Positions 19,772 to 29,175 of a stretch of 64,000 nucleotides of DNA are shown here, in pieces. The stretch covers positions 62,001-126,000 of the forward strand of contig JACIXC010000002.1 of the NCBI GenBank assembly GCA_014360655.1, given 5' to 3'. The stretch's first letter is position 1. The number at the start of each line of letters is the position of its first letter. The position numbers and the translations under genes are program-made. Source of the DNA: Actinomycetota bacterium (GTDB lineage: Bacteria; Actinomycetota; Geothermincolia; Geothermincolales; RBG-13-55-18). The notes under the pieces were generated by a model. The model was given only the letters and a program-made list of their open reading frames with translations, ran no database searches and was not told the origin of the DNA.

Positions 19772-19792
19772 GCGCCAACGTGACGTGCGAAC

Positions 19793-20004: not shown

Positions 20005-21012
20005 ATGGCGAGGATAGGAATCACCACCACGGTACCCGTCGAGGTCATCTACGCCGCCGGGCACGTGCCGGTCGACCTCAACAACGTGTTCGTGTCCAGC
20101 CCCGCCTGCGGAGAGCTCATCGAGGAGGCCGAGCTCGCGGGGTTCCCGCGCTCCTTCTGCGCCTGGATAAAAGGGATATACGGGGCGGTGCGGCGCATGC
20201 CCGACCTGGGGGCGGTGGTGGCCGTCACGCAGGGGGACTGCTCCAACACCCATGCCCTCATGGAGACCCTGCAGTGCGAGGGCATGGAGGTCATCCCCTT
20301 CGCCTATCCCTACGAGCGCGATTACGACCTGCTGCGCGCGCAGGTCGAGGGCTTCGCGCGCCGCCTGGGGACCACCCTGGAGGAGGCGCAGGCGGAGATG
20401 CGCCGCCTGGACAGGGTGAGGAGGAAGGCCCGCCGCGTGGACGAGCTGTCCTGGAAAGAGGGCCTGGTGAGGGGCCTGGAAAACCATCTCGCCCTGGTGA
20501 GCTGCAGCGATTTCGAGGGGGACCCGGAGGGGTTCGCAACGAAGCTGGACCTGTTGCTGGAGGAGGTCGCGAAGAGGAGGCGGGACGAGGGTTTCAGGCG
20601 CGCCGAAGACATGGTGCGCCTGGGCTACGTGGGCGTCCCCCCCATGGCCCCCGAGCTCTACGAATACCTGGAATCGCTGGGGGCGAGGGTGGTCTACAAC
20701 GAGACGCAGAGGCAGTTCAGCCTGCCCTTCGACACGGGGGACCTGGTGGAGAAGTACCGCCGCTACAGCTATCCTTATTCCATATTTTACCGTTTGAGGG
20801 ACATAAGGCGCGAGGCGGCACGCCGCCGCCTGCGGGGGCTGATACATTACGTGCAGAGCTTCTGTTTCCGGCAGGTCGAGGACATCATCCTGCGCCGCTC
20901 GCTCGACCTGCCCATGCTCACCCTGGAGATGGACCGCTCCTCCCGCCTCGACGCCCGCACCAGGATGCGCCTCGAGAACTTCGTCTCCGTGCTGAGGAAG
21001 GATAGAGGCTGA
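20005..21012 (+). CDS. 2-hydroxyacyl-CoA dehydratase D-component-like protein (HgdB/YjiM, COG1775-like)
   Basis: A 335-residue relative of the iron-sulfur subunits of 2-hydroxyacyl-CoA dehydratases, benzoyl-CoA reductase (BcrC) and stand-alone double-cubane cluster proteins. It contains six cysteines: C35, C52, C79 (TQGDC), C91, C167 and C287 (HYVQSFCFRQ). The C-terminal pattern LPMLTLEMD...DARTRMRLENF is typical of the family. Only one such subunit is present rather than the A/B pair of true dehydratases, as in YjiM/double-cubane proteins. ATG 20005 follows a GGGAG site; upstream in-frame ATGs at 19984 and 19996 are less likely. The activator gene overlaps its stop (TGATG). The substrate is unknown. 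Confidence 0.82.
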   Translation: MARIGITTTVPVEVIYAAGHVPVDLNNVFVSSPACGELIEEAELAGFPRSFCAWIKGIYGAVRRMPDLGAVVAVTQGDCSNTHALMETLQCEGMEVIPFAYPYERDYDLLRAQVEGFARRLGTTLEEAQAEMRRLDRVRRKARRVDELSWKEGLVRGLENHLALVSCSDFEGDPEGFATKLDLLLEEVAKRRRDEGFRRAEDMVRLGYVGVPPMAPELYEYLESLGARVVYNETQRQFSLPFDTGDLVEKYRRYSYPYSIFYRLRDIRREAARRRLRGLIHYVQSFCFRQVEDIILRRSLDLPMLTLEMDRSSRLDARTRMRLENFVSVLRKDRG

Positions 21013-21800
21013 TGGACGTGCGTTACGGGGTGGACCTGGGCAGCCGCCGCGTGAAGGTCGCCGCAGAACAGGATGGCGGCGGCTACCGTTACCTGGGGCC
21101 CTTCGACACCGCCGCCTTTTATCGTGATCACGTGGAACCCGGCGGGGGAGGCGGCACCCTTCTATACGGGGGATTGGGCATGGAGGAGGGTCTGCCCCTG
21201 GCGGTGACGGGTTACGGGCGCGCGCGCCTGGGCGGGGGAGCGCTTGCCGTGCCCGAGCTGGAGGCGGTGGTGGCGGGAGTCCGTGAGCTCACCGGGCTGC
21301 GGGACGCCGTGATCCTCGACGTGGGAGGCCAGGATTCCAAGGCGCTGCTCATGAAGGACGGGCGGCTGGCTGACTTCGCCGCCAACGACCGTTGCGCCGC
21401 CTCCTCGGGGCGCTTCATGGAGAACATGTGCGCCGCACTGGGCATGAGCCTGGAGGAGCTGGGCGGGCACTGGGAGGACCCCGTGGAGCTCTCTTCCACC
21501 TGCGCCATCTTCGGGGAGAGCGAGCTGGTGGGCCTGCTGGGGGAGGGGGTGCCCAGGGAGCGCCTGGCGGCGGGCGTGAACCACGCCATACTGCGCCGCC
21601 TCCTACCGCTCCTCGCGCGCTTCCCCGCGGCTTCCCTGGTCCTCACCGGCGGGGTGGCGTACAATAATGCCCTGCGCAGGCTCATCGGGGAGAGGCTGGG
21701 GACGGAGCCCCTGGTCCCCCACCCCCCCGATTTCGTGGCCGCCGTGGGGTGCTGCCGCCTGGGGGCGCGCGTGGAGGAGGGCGATGATGGAAGAATTTGA
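21012..21800 (+). CDS. BadF/BadG/HgdC-family ATPase activator (COG1924-like)
   Basis: This 262-residue ASKHA-fold ATPase is of the kind that donates low-potential electrons to HgdB/BcrC-type proteins in an ATP-dependent step. Visible features are GVDLGSRRVKV (nucleotide-binding phosphate loop), DVGGQDSK, NDRCAASSGRF with C128, SSTCAIFGESE with C164 and LTGGVAYN. The two cysteines match the ligands that hold one [4Fe-4S] cluster between the subunits of the dimeric activator. The ATG overlaps the stop of the upstream HgdB-like gene, and its own stop lies inside the start of queD, so all three are translationally coupled. Confidence 0.85.
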   Translation: MDVRYGVDLGSRRVKVAAEQDGGGYRYLGPFDTAAFYRDHVEPGGGGGTLLYGGLGMEEGLPLAVTGYGRARLGGGALAVPELEAVVAGVRELTGLRDAVILDVGGQDSKALLMKDGRLADFAANDRCAASSGRFMENMCAALGMSLEELGGHWEDPVELSSTCAIFGESELVGLLGEGVPRERLAAGVNHAILRRLLPLLARFPAASLVLTGGVAYNNALRRLIGERLGTEPLVPHPPDFVAAVGCCRLGARVEEGDDGRI

Positions 21801-22170
21801 GATCTCGGCCGCCGTGCACTTCGACGCCGCGCACCGCCTGCCCGGGTATCACGGGCCCTGCGCCCGCCTGCACGGCCACCGCTGGCGGGTGGAGGCGGCG
21901 GTGGCGGGCGAGCGGTTGGACGATACGGGCATCCTCGTCGACTTCATGAAAGTCAAGGAATGGCTGCAGGATATCGTCTCCGCCTTCGACCACCGCTGCC
22001 TCAACGAGGTGGAGCCCTTCACGGCGATGGCGCCCACCTCGGAGAACCTGGCCCGCCACGTCTACGGCGAGCTGGCGAGGAGGATGGGCGAGCGGGCGGG
22101 GGCGGTGCGGCTTTCCTGGGTGAGCGTATCCGAGTCCCCGGACACGCGCGTGGTCTACCGGGAGGCATAG
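21784..22170 (+). CDS. queD: 6-carboxy-5,6,7,8-tetrahydropterin synthase
   Basis: QueD converts 7,8-dihydroneopterin triphosphate to 6-carboxytetrahydropterin in the pathway to preQ0, the precursor of queuosine and other 7-deazaguanines. The 128-residue protein has the zinc ligands H17 (DAAHRL), H30 and H32 (LHGHRW), the catalytic C26 and the second catalytic motif DHRCLNE. It starts at ATG 21784, inside the last codons of the activator gene, after GGAGGAGG. It is followed by queC. The 6-pyruvoyl-tetrahydropterin synthase fold is certain; the QueD role follows from the neighbours. Confidence 0.93.
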   Translation: MMEEFEISAAVHFDAAHRLPGYHGPCARLHGHRWRVEAAVAGERLDDTGILVDFMKVKEWLQDIVSAFDHRCLNEVEPFTAMAPTSENLARHVYGELARRMGERAGAVRLSWVSVSESPDTRVVYREA

Positions 22171-22250
22171 CCCGCGCCGCGTGCAGCGGGGAAGGTGCGG
22201 CTCACCGCGGAACCTTGAGGCGGTGTTGGGGCATGGAGGCATCGCGGGAC

Positions 22251-23015
22251 ATGCGGAGGAAAAAGTCGGAAAACCTGGTGCTCCTTTCCGGGGGCCTGGA
22301 CTCCGCCGTGAATCTTCTCATGGCTCTGCGCCGTGGCGGGGTGGGGCTTGCCGTCACCGTGGACTACGGCCAGAGGGCGGCGCGGCGCGAGGTGGAAAGG
22401 GCGTCCGCGCTGTGCGCGGTGCACGGGGTCCGACACGAGGTGATCGCGGCGAAGTGGCTGGGTAAATATTCCAGGGACGCCCTGACCACGCCGGGGGTCG
22501 CTTTTACGGGCGTGGCGGCGGGGACGGAAGGGGCAGGGGACGGTGAGCCCACAACGGCGCGGGACGATGCATCATTGCACGCGCTCTGGGTCCCCAACCG
22601 CAACGGCCTGCTGGCCAACGTGGGCGCCTGCCTGGCGGAGGCGCTGGGGATGAGGTACGTGGTCATGGGCCTCAACGCGGAGGAGGGCGCCGTCTTCCCG
22701 GACAACTCCCCCGCTTTCATAAGGGAGATGAACCGCGCCTTTTCCTATTCCACGCTCTCCAGGGTGCGCCTGAGGAGTTTTACCAAGAACATGAATAAAA
22801 TGGAAATAATGGCAGAGGCCCTCGCCTGCGGACTCGATTTTCGCTACCTTTGGTCGTGCTATAATGAGGGGGAATTGATGTGCGGTTCCTGCCCCTCCTG
22901 CGCACGGCTTCTCGCAGCCGCCGAGGGGTTGGGGGTGAGGGATAGGCTGAAGGGATATTTCGGGAGCGGGCGCTCGCCGCAAGGGGACGCCGGTCAAAGG
23001 GGAGAGATTCCATGA
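22251..23015 (+). CDS. queC: 7-cyano-7-deazaguanine (preQ0) synthase
   Basis: QueC uses ATP and ammonia to turn 7-carboxy-7-deazaguanine into preQ0. The PP-loop is SGGLDS (residues 13-18 from ATG 22251). The C-terminal zinc site is C203, C211, C214 and C217 (CGSCPSC). The protein is 254 residues from this start, which has GGAGG 11 bases upstream; ATG 22233 would add six residues. An unusual low-complexity Ala/Gly/Thr segment occurs around residues 85-105. Its stop overlaps the DUF366 start (ATGA). Confidence 0.93.
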   Translation: MRRKKSENLVLLSGGLDSAVNLLMALRRGGVGLAVTVDYGQRAARREVERASALCAVHGVRHEVIAAKWLGKYSRDALTTPGVAFTGVAAGTEGAGDGEPTTARDDASLHALWVPNRNGLLANVGACLAEALGMRYVVMGLNAEEGAVFPDNSPAFIREMNRAFSYSTLSRVRLRSFTKNMNKMEIMAEALACGLDFRYLWSCYNEGELMCGSCPSCARLLAAAEGLGVRDRLKGYFGSGRSPQGDAGQRGEIP

Positions 23016-23599
23016 AGGGTAAATACATCAAGGGTAGAAGCATCACCTACGACGGCTCGCAGCTGCGTTCCCATTACGCCTATACCGAGCACGACGTGCA
23101 GGGCGACTCCGTGGTCGCTTTCCGCGGACCCTGCCGGGTGGGGGTGGACGATCTCGTGGACCTGGAGGACCGCAAGAAGAAGGCCGAGATCTACAGCGAG
23201 GAGATGGCCCATTTCATAGTGGAGCTCTTCGGGCGCGACCTTGACCTGACCCTGGCCATTCAGCGCCTCCTCCTCTGCGTGATCAAGGACGTCATCGAGG
23301 AGCTGAAACCGGAGCTCTTCATCAACCGCCGCGGCGATGACCTCTACATAGAGGTGGAGGTGGACGAGGGCGAGGAGGAGAACCGCAAGCTGACGGTGAG
23401 CGTGGCCACCGCCAGCCCCGTGTCCACGCTCATCCATACGGGCATCAACATCTCCAGCCGCAACACTCCCGTGCCCACCCTGGGGCTTGACGACCTGGAG
23501 ATCCCTGTGGACGATTTCATCCTCAAGGTCCTGCAGGGGTTCATAAACGAGATGAAGGGGATGGAGCTCGCGCGCTGCAAGGTGCGCGCCGTCACCTGA
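23012..23599 (+). CDS. DUF366 family protein (COG2029-like)
   Basis: A 195-residue protein matching the uncharacterised DUF366 family. The recognisable run includes YDGSQLRSHYAY, the glycine/acid-rich QGDSVVAFRGPCRV, DLEDRKK, MAHFIVELFG, FINRRGDDLYI and the Ser/Thr-rich VATASPVSTLIHTGINISS. It is soluble, with no signal peptide. It starts within the queC stop (ATGA), so it belongs to the preQ0 operon; DUF366 genes are commonly found beside queuosine or archaeosine genes, which suggests a role there. The reaction is unknown. Confidence 0.85.
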   Translation: MKGKYIKGRSITYDGSQLRSHYAYTEHDVQGDSVVAFRGPCRVGVDDLVDLEDRKKKAEIYSEEMAHFIVELFGRDLDLTLAIQRLLLCVIKDVIEELKPELFINRRGDDLYIEVEVDEGEEENRKLTVSVATASPVSTLIHTGINISSRNTPVPTLGLDDLEIPVDDFILKVLQGFINEMKGMELARCKVRAVT

Positions 23600-23745: not shown

Positions 23746-24594
23746 GTGCCTGTGAACGTCTGCGAGGTATTCCCGTCCTTCCAGGGCGAGGGCGTGCTTG
23801 CCGGGGTCCCGCAGGTCTTTCTGAGGCTGGGAGGGTGCAACCTCGACTGTTCGTATTGCGACACGCCCTGGGCGAGGGCGGAGTCGGACACGTGTCGCGT
23901 GTACGGATGGGAAGGGCTCCTGGAAACAGTTACCAACCCGCTGGATGCGCGGCTCCTCGCCGAGCGGGTCGCGGCGTTATGGGAAAGCGGCATGCACTCG
24001 CTGAGCCTCACCGGCGGCGAACCGCTCCTGCAGGCAGAAGGGCTGGCGGAGCTGCTGCCCGTGCTGCGCCGCCGGGGCATGCCCGTCTACCTAGAGAGCA
24101 ACGGCACCCTTCCGGAGAAGCTGGCCGCACTGCTGGAATGGGTGGACTGGATCGCCATGGACCTCAAGCTGCCGTATTCCCAGGGCGGGAAAGACTACCT
24201 GGAAGCGCAGCGGGATTTCCTGCGCCTGGCCTCCTCGCGGCGCTTGTTCCTCAAGGTGGTCATAGAGGAGGGTACCCCCGCCGGAGAGCTGGAACGTTTC
24301 CTGCGCGTCATGGCGGGGGTGGCGGAAGGCGTGCCGCTGGTGCTGCAGCCGGTATCCCTCCCCCTACGGGATACGGCGCGGGGGCCTGGCACATGGGGCG
24401 GCGGGAAGGAAGCGCCGGCTGGCGAGGGCCGGGGCGAAGGTTGCGCGGGAGGCGCGCAGCCGCCCGCAGCGGTTGCGCGGGACAGGGTGGGAATAAGCGC
24501 GGAGCGCGCGGCCGCCTTCCTCCGCATCGCCTCCGCCCATTTCCGTGATGTCCGGGTCATCCCCCAGCTGCATCGCGCCTGGGGGATAAGGTAG
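23746..24594 (+). CDS. queE: 7-carboxy-7-deazaguanine synthase (radical SAM)
   Basis: QueE rearranges 6-carboxytetrahydropterin to 7-carboxy-7-deazaguanine using SAM and a [4Fe-4S] cluster. The cluster motif is C31, C35 and C38 (GCNLDCSYC), preceded by the family N-terminus FPSFQGEGVLAG and followed by SLTGGEPLL and the DLKLPYS motif. GTG 23746 is preferred because GGGGGAA lies about 9 bases upstream and upstream in-frame sequence is low complexity. An Ala/Gly-rich insertion of some 35 residues near the C-terminus (around residues 207-245) is unusual. It lies 146 bases after DUF366, in the same direction. Confidence 0.92.
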   Translation: MPVNVCEVFPSFQGEGVLAGVPQVFLRLGGCNLDCSYCDTPWARAESDTCRVYGWEGLLETVTNPLDARLLAERVAALWESGMHSLSLTGGEPLLQAEGLAELLPVLRRRGMPVYLESNGTLPEKLAALLEWVDWIAMDLKLPYSQGGKDYLEAQRDFLRLASSRRLFLKVVIEEGTPAGELERFLRVMAGVAEGVPLVLQPVSLPLRDTARGPGTWGGGKEAPAGEGRGEGCAGGAQPPAAVARDRVGISAERAAAFLRIASAHFRDVRVIPQLHRAWGIR

Positions 24595-24717: not shown

Positions 24718-25356
24718 ATGGCACTCGACCACGCGCCGGAGGACCTGAAGAGGGCGCGCGAGAAGGCGGCGAGGGAGTTCAGGCTCCTGGACCCGTCCTG
24801 GATGGCTTCACGCTCGGGGACCTTCTATTCCTACCCGCGGCGCACCTTCTTCGTCCCCTTCTTCGGCGAGCCGTACTCCGTCTCCTACCCGGAAGGCACG
24901 GTGGCGCGCGGAAACGGCAGCCCCGCGGGGGCGCGGGAGGCGCTCATCGTCGTGCATTACCTCGTGAACGCGGACGGCACGCCGGTGCAGGGAAGGTGGG
25001 TGGCCTACCGCGACCTTCCCGGGGCGCGTTACCACGAGCCTGCCTTCGTGGCCGAGGTGGAGAACCCCCTCTCCCGCGGTTTGGCGGGGCGGCGGGAGGA
25101 GCTGCGGGGATGGGCGGAGGAGAACGCCGAGGCCGTGGACCTTCCCGGGGACGTGGCAGCGGCCTGGTACGTGCTGCCGCGCGTGCCGCTGCTGCTCGTC
25201 TTCAACGACGGGGACGAGGAATTCCCGGCGAGCGCGCGCGTTTTCTTCGACGCGAGCGCGCCGCATTACCTGCCCACCGAGGACCTCTCCGTGCTGGCGG
25301 AGCTCGCGGCGCTGCGCCTGCTCGAGGAGACCGGAGCCCTGGGCGCGGGGCATTAA
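24718..25356 (+). CDS. DUF3786-like protein
   Basis: A 212-residue soluble protein that resembles the uncharacterised DUF3786 family found in anaerobes. Supporting patterns are FYSYPRRTFFVPFFGEPYSV, an internal VVHYLVNADGTPVQG, WVAYRDLPGARYHEPAF and the C-terminal LLLVFNDGDEEFPASARVFFD with PHYLPTEDLSVL. No signal peptide, membrane helix or cysteine cluster is seen. The ATG has GAGGTG about 9 bases upstream, and a TATATT box lies at 24679. Relatives are often reported near corrinoid or CO/acetyl-CoA enzymes, but no such gene is adjacent here, so I infer no function. Confidence 0.7.
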   Translation: MALDHAPEDLKRAREKAAREFRLLDPSWMASRSGTFYSYPRRTFFVPFFGEPYSVSYPEGTVARGNGSPAGAREALIVVHYLVNADGTPVQGRWVAYRDLPGARYHEPAFVAEVENPLSRGLAGRREELRGWAEENAEAVDLPGDVAAAWYVLPRVPLLLVFNDGDEEFPASARVFFDASAPHYLPTEDLSVLAELAALRLLEETGALGAGH

Positions 25357-28863: not shown

Positions 28864-29065
28864 GGCGACCTCCTTTCCGGGATTTCGACTCACGCCGTTT
28901 CGCGCGAAAACGGCAACGTACCGGTATGGGGCGGAACGAACGGGTTGATGTCCGCCCTTCCTTCCCCTGTTGCCTTATTGTATATTTTACATGAGGAAAT
29001 ATGCCGTATGCGCAGCCGCAGGGCCTGTCCCGAAGCCGCAGCGCAGGTTGACAACCGCATAAGCT

Positions 29066-29146
29066 CCATGTAGGGGTGCTCCCGAGCGGGGGCTGAGAGC
29101 ATACCCTCGGAACCTGACCTGGGTAATGCCAGCGTAGGGAACATGG
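29066..29146 (+). promoter_or_regulatory. TPP riboswitch (THI element)
   Basis: The conserved core is present: GGGGTGC, then GGCTGAGAG, then AACCTGACCTGGGTAATGCC and GCGTAGGGAA. The closing P1 helix is CCATG (29066-29070) with CATGG (29142-29146). It binds thiamine pyrophosphate and controls the thi4-thiE-thiC-thiL-thiD genes downstream. An intrinsic terminator follows within 30 bases, so regulation is probably by premature termination. Confidence 0.97.
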
Positions 29147-29175
29147 TCGATTCGTGACGATCGATTGTTTTCGCG

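Follow-up and report, generated by a model that had tools for sequence, protein, structure and literature searches.

The DUF366 gene of the window, by which we mean the whole 64,000-nucleotide stretch of Actinomycetota DNA that was analysed, encodes a member of its family in an operon for preQ0 synthesis. The family is associated with the 7-deazaguanine pathway, its modelled fold is that of the biotin and lipoate protein ligases, and in the genomes that we sampled a variant form of QueC was never found without DUF366. We suggest, with a probability of roughly 0.42, that DUF366 and this variant QueC form a two-component synthase that makes preQ0 from CDG, and that the part of DUF366 is most likely to activate the carboxylate. 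PreQ0 (7-cyano-7-deazaguanine) is a precursor of tRNA modification and CDG is 7-carboxy-7-deazaguanine; canonical QueC carries out both ATP-dependent half reactions that lead from one to the other, CDG to the amide ADG and then ADG to the nitrile.

The DUF366 locus

The gene is an open reading frame for 195 residues with an ATG start, and it overlaps its upstream neighbor: the ATG (23012-23014) shares the tetranucleotide ATGA with the queC stop codon TGA (23013-23015). The original prediction, a full-length DUF366 gene starting within the queC stop, is thus borne out, as the family profile PF04017 matches residues 8-192 at 203.2 bits (cut-off 29.9) over profile positions 7-184 of 184. Relatives are encoded in 129 stretches of other genomes, the best 80 of which were kept, and together with the conserved queC neighborhood this shows that the reading frame is not a chance one.

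The order of the operon is HgdB-like gene, BadF-like gene, queD, queC, DUF366, queE (Table 1). The QueE-like product scores under the cut-offs of the QueE models that it matches, and is thus divergent; QueC scores under the cut-off of NCBIfam TIGR00364 (139.8 vs 150.3). All eleven nearest loci (L002-L012), whose titles name Solincola, Geothermincola, actinobacterium or Actinomycetota, contain HgdB, queD, queC, DUF366 and queE. Downstream of queE lies a DUF3786 gene (24718-25356), which was also recognised in L002-L010 and L012, and a TPP riboswitch (RF00059, 73.4 bits) is found at 29062-29157. At the Rfam gathering threshold no preQ1 riboswitch was matched in the window, in a set of 20 HgdB loci (34 were fetched), or in another 12 loci, of which 9 are DUF366 and 3 HgdB loci.

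Table 1. Genes of the preQ0 operon in the window
Feature	Position	Strand	Basis and remarks
HgdB-like protein, 2-hydroxyacyl-CoA dehydratase/reductase family	20005..21012	+	PF06050 (HGD-D) 122.8 bits, cut-off 28.4; start uncertain, reading frame opens at 19780
BadF-type ATPase/activase	21012..21800	+	BcrAD_BadFG domain; TIGR00241 156.7 bits, cut-off 125.4
QueD, 6-carboxytetrahydropterin synthase	21787..22170	+	TIGR03367 102.7 bits, cut-off 89.25
Variant QueC (YGQRAARRE, VPNRN, FPDN, Cx7CxxCxxC)	22233..23015	+	PF06508 143 bits
DUF366, modelled BPL/LplA/LipB fold	23012..23599	+	PF04017 203 bits; model pLDDT 92.7; 2ddz Z 28.1
QueE-like radical SAM protein	23752..24594	+	GTG start is our choice; divergent

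Fold and conserved residues of DUF366

The solved relative of DUF366 is 2ddz of P. horikoshii, a PDB entry named as a protein of unknown function; it matches the window protein in sequence over the full length (E 7.7e-34, query residues 5-195) and has the same fold. The corresponding COG we take to be COG2029. An AlphaFold model built with 46 sequences reached a pLDDT of 92.7, and in a structural search with this predicted fold 2ddz came first (Z 28.1), followed by 49 listed rows at Z 11.7-13.8 which are BPL, LplA, LipB and related chains, with 147-168 residues aligned. Foldseek agrees, with a probability of 1.00 in 50 listed rows. The modelled fold of DUF366 is therefore that of the biotin/lipoate protein ligases (BPL/LplA/LipB), and the likeness runs from model residue 1 to about residue 188, although sequence identity in the listed rows is only 8-17 %. 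Structure prediction had been proposed earlier as a way to look for a nucleoside-binding pocket; what the model gives is a ligase-like fold with a D-x6-K element resembling the adenylation site of these enzymes.

In BPL the catalytic lysine follows a (K)WPND-like strand, and the biotin-binding loop is GRGRRG. A marginal match of the DUF366 alignment profile to the Aquifex biotin ligase 2eay (E 0.02) pairs RxGDD...K with KWPND...K, so that K126 of DUF366 aligns with the BPL lysine, and the D-x6-K spacing is identical in 2ddz as printed in the profile alignment. The aligned part covers profile positions 90-177 and stops short of the biotin-binding loop; at the putative place of this GRGR loop DUF366 has an acidic VDxED region instead. 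Its HTGIN resembles both the HG motif of LplA/LipB and the GIN motif of BPL. Unlike BPL, LplA and LipB, DUF366 is encoded with preQ0 genes. Against the QueF profile PF14489 there was no match, PF04017 being the only one at E 0.001.

Conservation was assessed in 80 cellular rows, 56 further cellular rows (some genomes represented twice) and 49 rows from viral contigs (some of them fragments). D50, D53, G108, D109, D110, K126, H142 and N146 are near-invariant in cellular and viral-contig proteins alike: one or two viral-contig rows are gapped at these sites, single substitutions occur in viral-contig rows at D53, D109 and D110, and D109 is replaced by N in 4 of the 80 cellular rows. K126 is present in all 81 rows of the cellular alignment and in 47 of the 49 viral ones, the other two being gapped. 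From fold and residues we infer that DUF366 is an adenylating enzyme.

DUF366 and the 7-deazaguanine pathway

Directly upstream of DUF366, on the same strand, lies queC in 70 of the best 80 (of 129) loci; in 4 more it is 0.9-1.9 kb upstream, and in 6 the fetched stretch contains no queC. The gene for QueE is directly downstream in 16 of the 80. Titles of these loci include Actinomycetota, Bacillota, Deltaproteobacteria, Gastranaerophilales, Armatimonadota and WS1, and a large share of the genomes named here is metagenome-assembled. A first set of 46 genomes, consisting of those behind 45 of the 80 loci and the window's own, encodes QueD, TGT and QueA in 44 genomes each, so the idea that DUF366 compensates for an absent QueD was rejected. 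QueF was found over its cut-off in 23 of the 46. Compensation for an absent FolE was judged at the level of single loci: folE2 was seen in L015 and folE in L017, and folE also lies near DUF366 in the loci of G272, G049 and G145. For archaea the search covered the 14 control genomes, in which DUF366 was found solely in M. jannaschii and M. acetivorans and hence not in H. volcanii or S. acidocaldarius. A search of plasmids gave two partial Streptomyces matches covering 40 % of the query.

The co-occurrence with QueD, TGT and QueA, together with the queC context, places DUF366 in 7-deazaguanine synthesis, and its co-occurrence with QueF argues that it is no stand-in for that enzyme. Nor is DUF366 found mostly in genomes devoid of 7-deazaguanine genes: QueC scoring over 120 bits is present in 27 of 28 DUF366 genomes, compared to 8 of 52 without DUF366 over the cut-off. 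The role in 7-deazaguanine chemistry that was originally predicted is thus well supported, and DUF366 almost certainly belongs to this metabolism; the more specific suggestions, the step of QueF or a general partnership with the reductase pair, do not hold up, and the data point to QueC.

A variant QueC encoded with DUF366

A 2026 paper gives SGGxDS, YxQxHxxE, VPxRN, YPDC and C(x)8CxxCxxC as the motifs of canonical QueC, and reports for the YPDC tyrosine of the E. coli enzyme that Y131A is inactive and Y131F partly active (PMC13329287). QueC of the window retains the loop (SGGLDS) and the CxxCxxC zinc motif (CGSCPSC), and has FPDN and YGQRAARRE, i.e. it is without canonical YPDC and YxQxHxxE. 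Across the DUF366 loci 74 QueC proteins were read, and every one shows F[PS]DN at the place of YPDC and lacks the histidine. The variant thus resembles canonical QueC (PF06508 cluster 1 in PMC13329287) in S(G/A)GxDS, VPNRN and CxxCxxC, and differs from it in FxDN for YPDC, in the missing YxQxHxxE histidine, and in being encoded with DUF366.

In a quick tree the variant forms one clade (support 94). The motif change is therefore a single event, and genome counts are not independent; for the same reason a test on independent pairs found a single pair and had no power. Eight YxDC rows from genomes without DUF366 (G050 and 7 others) lack the histidine as well, so that its loss alone does not mark the variant, and the change to FxDN is the better marker. 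Where genomes hold a second QueC-like copy, it reads FPDA or FSDA (G307, G299), YPDC (G318) or FPDT (G073), and in G362 it is a fragment whose motif is not readable; for such genomes our counts rest on the best copy. The paralogues of G307 and G299 (L335, L336) combine FPDA/FSDA with LPGRN and occur in genomes that also have a canonical QueC.

Variant QueC and DUF366 across two phyla

The phylum of Carboxydothermus was sampled with 249 genomes not chosen for DUF366, 30 of which carry it over the cut-off. Variant QueC was found in 25 of these 30 (including G016, which was read as L017), canonical QueC in 4, and no QueC over 120 bits in 1; the QueC of G135, a genome outside the QueC, QueF and HgdB searches, was read from L155. 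In contrast, 52 of the 219 DUF366-negative genomes were examined, and the 8 among them that have QueC over 120 bits all show YPDC (8/8). G183, with a DUF366 match of 21.4 bits, under the cut-off, was counted as negative. The second sample comprised 77 genomes of the phylum to which the Gastranaerophilales genome G027 belongs; here variant QueC is present in 34 of 34 DUF366 genomes (4 of these QueC proteins had been read in the first set), whereas the 43 genomes without DUF366 have YxDC in 38 cases and no QueC over 100 bits in 5.

Pooled over both phyla and counting QueC-bearing genomes, the variant occurs in 59 of 63 with DUF366 versus 0 of 46 without it (Fisher 2e-26, a p-value that ignores kinship). 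Physical linkage alone does not explain this pairing, since DUF366 and queC are on different contigs in 5 of the 34 genomes of the G027 phylum. The four genomes with canonical QueC (G049, G096, G095 and G134) have an intact DUF366 beside queE, with queC elsewhere. In G272, where no QueC exceeds 120 bits, DUF366 adjoins folE (contig C3; L192:5484-6706) and could be a deletion remnant or have a role independent of QueC. These five genomes argue that DUF366 is not merely a crutch for variant QueC. The association is thus asymmetric: in the sampled genomes variant QueC without DUF366 was never seen, while DUF366 without variant QueC does occur. This fits DUF366 as an enzyme that makes some QueC residues dispensable, and fits a looser association as well.

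A proposed function for DUF366 and its alternatives

In the bacteria that encode DUF366, QueC would have lost the tyrosine and cysteine of YPDC and the histidine of YxQxHxxE, and DUF366 would supply what was lost. DUF366 may bind CDG, which like biotin is a fused-ring carboxylic acid, and adenylate its carboxylate, so that ammonia would give ADG; the variant QueC could then complete the dehydration to the nitrile. That DUF366 acts at the same step as QueC is an inference which seems to us reasonably probable; its assignment to the first half reaction, as a CDG-activating ligase, is more tentative. If true, the proposal would assign a role to a family that has a solved structure (2ddz) but no characterised function, and would describe a QueC subfamily with a broken catalytic signature in genomes that still carry queuosine genes. 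Among open-licence PMC papers no on-topic title was found for DUF366, PF04017, PH1223, COG2029 or 2DDZ, and among the titles listed neither a DUF366/QueC synthase nor HgdB in place of QueF was reported.

Intact DUF366 alongside canonical QueC (4/30) or without QueC over 120 bits (G272) would also suit an independent accessory enzyme of 7-deazaguanine metabolism, active in salvage, precursor binding or intermediate repair and merely co-inherited with the variant QueC. Viral-contig DUF366 beside canonical-like QueC points in the same direction, and because all variant QueC falls into one clade, the two genes may be linked by descent. We nonetheless consider such an enzyme rather unlikely, as variant QueC is found in none of the 46 genomes, from two phyla, that have QueC but no DUF366, and as it accompanies DUF366 in five genomes even though the two genes are on different contigs. 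The adjacency of queC and DUF366 in 70 of the best 80 loci could, moreover, reflect a DUF366 that takes over the second half reaction (ADG to nitrile), or one that serves QueC as a structural subunit, and not an adenylating enzyme; with near-invariant polar residues of its own, present also where variant QueC is not, DUF366 looks more like an enzyme than a scaffold, and we hold this to be quite improbable.

The BPL/LplA fold of the model is compatible with yet another activity, namely transfer of a deazaguanine or acyl group to protein or nucleic acid, in the manner of BPL and LplA with biotin and lipoate. This idea gains from QueC relatives such as Cap9, which conjugate CDG to proteins (PMC13329287; PMC13279940); in bacteria as in viral contigs DUF366 is found in a context of preQ0 synthesis, which speaks weakly against transfer, and we would give it little credence. 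The original suggestion that DUF366 provides the missing QueF step, as a non-orthologous preQ0 reductase, would account for the absence of QueF from 26 of 28 genomes with DUF366 and QueC in the Carboxydothermus phylum, compared to 3 of 8 DUF366-negative genomes with QueC. However, QueF co-occurs with DUF366 in 23 of 46 other genomes, and the listed structural matches consist of ligases and transferases. The absence of QueF is also better explained by the HgdB orthologue, including in three genomes (G103, G056 and G084) that have QueC and this orthologue but neither QueF nor DUF366. A QueF role for DUF366 is thus very hard to sustain, and we favor the two-component synthase with variant QueC.

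The HgdB-like protein and the QueF step

A protein search with HgdB of the window found an orthologue (E 2e-101 or better, at least 50 % identity) in 40 of 71 genomes. In the 66 of these 71 compared for QueF, no genome has both, 39 have HgdB only, 21 QueF only and 6 neither, so that the orthologue is present in 39 of 45 QueF-less and 0 of 21 QueF-bearing genomes; QueF matches under the cut-off in G016, G047, G083, G093 and G125, which are probably FolE, were counted as absent. In 37 genomes of the Carboxydothermus phylum the corresponding numbers are 0, 30, 7 and 0. In the co-occurrence check proposed for DUF366, queF and HgdB, QueF thus excludes the HgdB orthologue (0/21) and not DUF366. Nor does a partnership of DUF366 with the reductase pair hold generally, as the orthologue is present in none of the 16 QueF-bearing DUF366 genomes tested (14 came from the first set; the other two are G073 and G291, where DUF366 and QueF are present and the orthologue is absent). 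Among Carboxydothermus-phylum genomes without DUF366 or QueC, the HgdB orthologue is found in 5 of 44 (G078 and 4 of 39).

Of the 30 orthologous loci fetched, 27 have BadF next to HgdB, but it was recognised in only 6 of the 11 nearest-relative loci of the window; the BadF-type activase is presumably the partner of the HgdB-like protein. No BadF was recognised beside HgdB in L005-L008 and L010, and in four of these loci HgdB and queD nearly abut. HgdB has three cysteines that are conserved in at least 95 % of 30 rows, and BadF has three that are conserved in at least 95 % of the rows. The pair is proposed to act at the same pathway step as QueF, the reduction of preQ0, while being of an ATP-driven Fe-S enzyme family (BCR/HAD, DCCP) for which we saw no sequence tie to QueF. 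HgdB scores 49.9 bits with the double-cubane model NF040772, below its cut-off of 350. Reduction of acetylene, azide and hydrazine is described for DCCP relatives, with unclear physiological relevance (PMC11971306).

The HgdB-like gene explains the missing QueF step better than DUF366 does, and HgdB-like protein and activase, not DUF366, would be the likely substitute for QueF in converting preQ0 to preQ1. We lean slightly towards this replacement, having lowered our estimate a little because of the recount of BadF. In 4 of the 6 Bacillota-phylum loci looked at, a gene for methylaspartate ammonia-lyase or mutase lies beside the pair, which calls for caution with the reading as a preQ0 reductase. 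If true, the replacement would name a candidate enzyme for the reduction of preQ0 in bacteria with QueA and TGT but without QueF, where this step is unfilled. The joint reading, with a second, two-part route to the preQ0 nitrile in several bacterial phyla, phages and perhaps archaea, and nitrile reduction by HgdB/BadF where QueF is absent, is a doubtful one as a whole. Were it true, the nitrile would be made as well as reduced by enzymes unrelated to the textbook ones, and nature would possess a two-part nitrile synthase as well as an ATP-dependent Fe-S nitrile reductase.

DUF366 on viral contigs

A DUF366 profile search of viral metagenome contigs gave 49 loci. QueD, QueE, QueC, FolE or FolE2, and DUF366 are encoded together in L100, L101, L103, L104, L107 and L111. 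In a larger group of these contigs queC and DUF366 are separated by two gene clusters, either of which occurs in 28 of the 49 loci; their members in L122 resemble a glutamine amidotransferase and a glycosyltransferase at scores under the Pfam cut-offs. In viral-contig QueC encoded beside DUF366 the histidine is kept in 31 of 34 proteins, missing in 1 and not readable in 2, and YxDC is found in 10 of the 34. PHROGs held no family for DUF366 of the window or for two viral copies.

The viral contigs are putative phages. L111 encodes a family A DNA polymerase, and members of the same cluster occur in L100 and L107. All three carry a gene of a phosphoribosyltransferase cluster (L100:6506-6973, L107:5431-5862, L111:6158-6607) with preQ0 genes and DUF366; the Pfam domain was seen in L100, and L107 and L111 are assigned by cluster. 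In such contigs deazaguanine nucleotides are possibly made before polymerisation, and not by transglycosylation.

DUF366 in a cultured phage was considered as well, but the sole match of tblastn searches of a phage collection, MW495066, was discounted as bacterial-looking. This sequence (L149), named Microcystis phage MaAM05, carries secDF, fliM, glyS and acdA and looks like a bacterial contig. Long QueF-like proteins with QueF_N and QueF domains are encoded beside DUF366 in L107 (9976-11214) and L111 (9456-10604).
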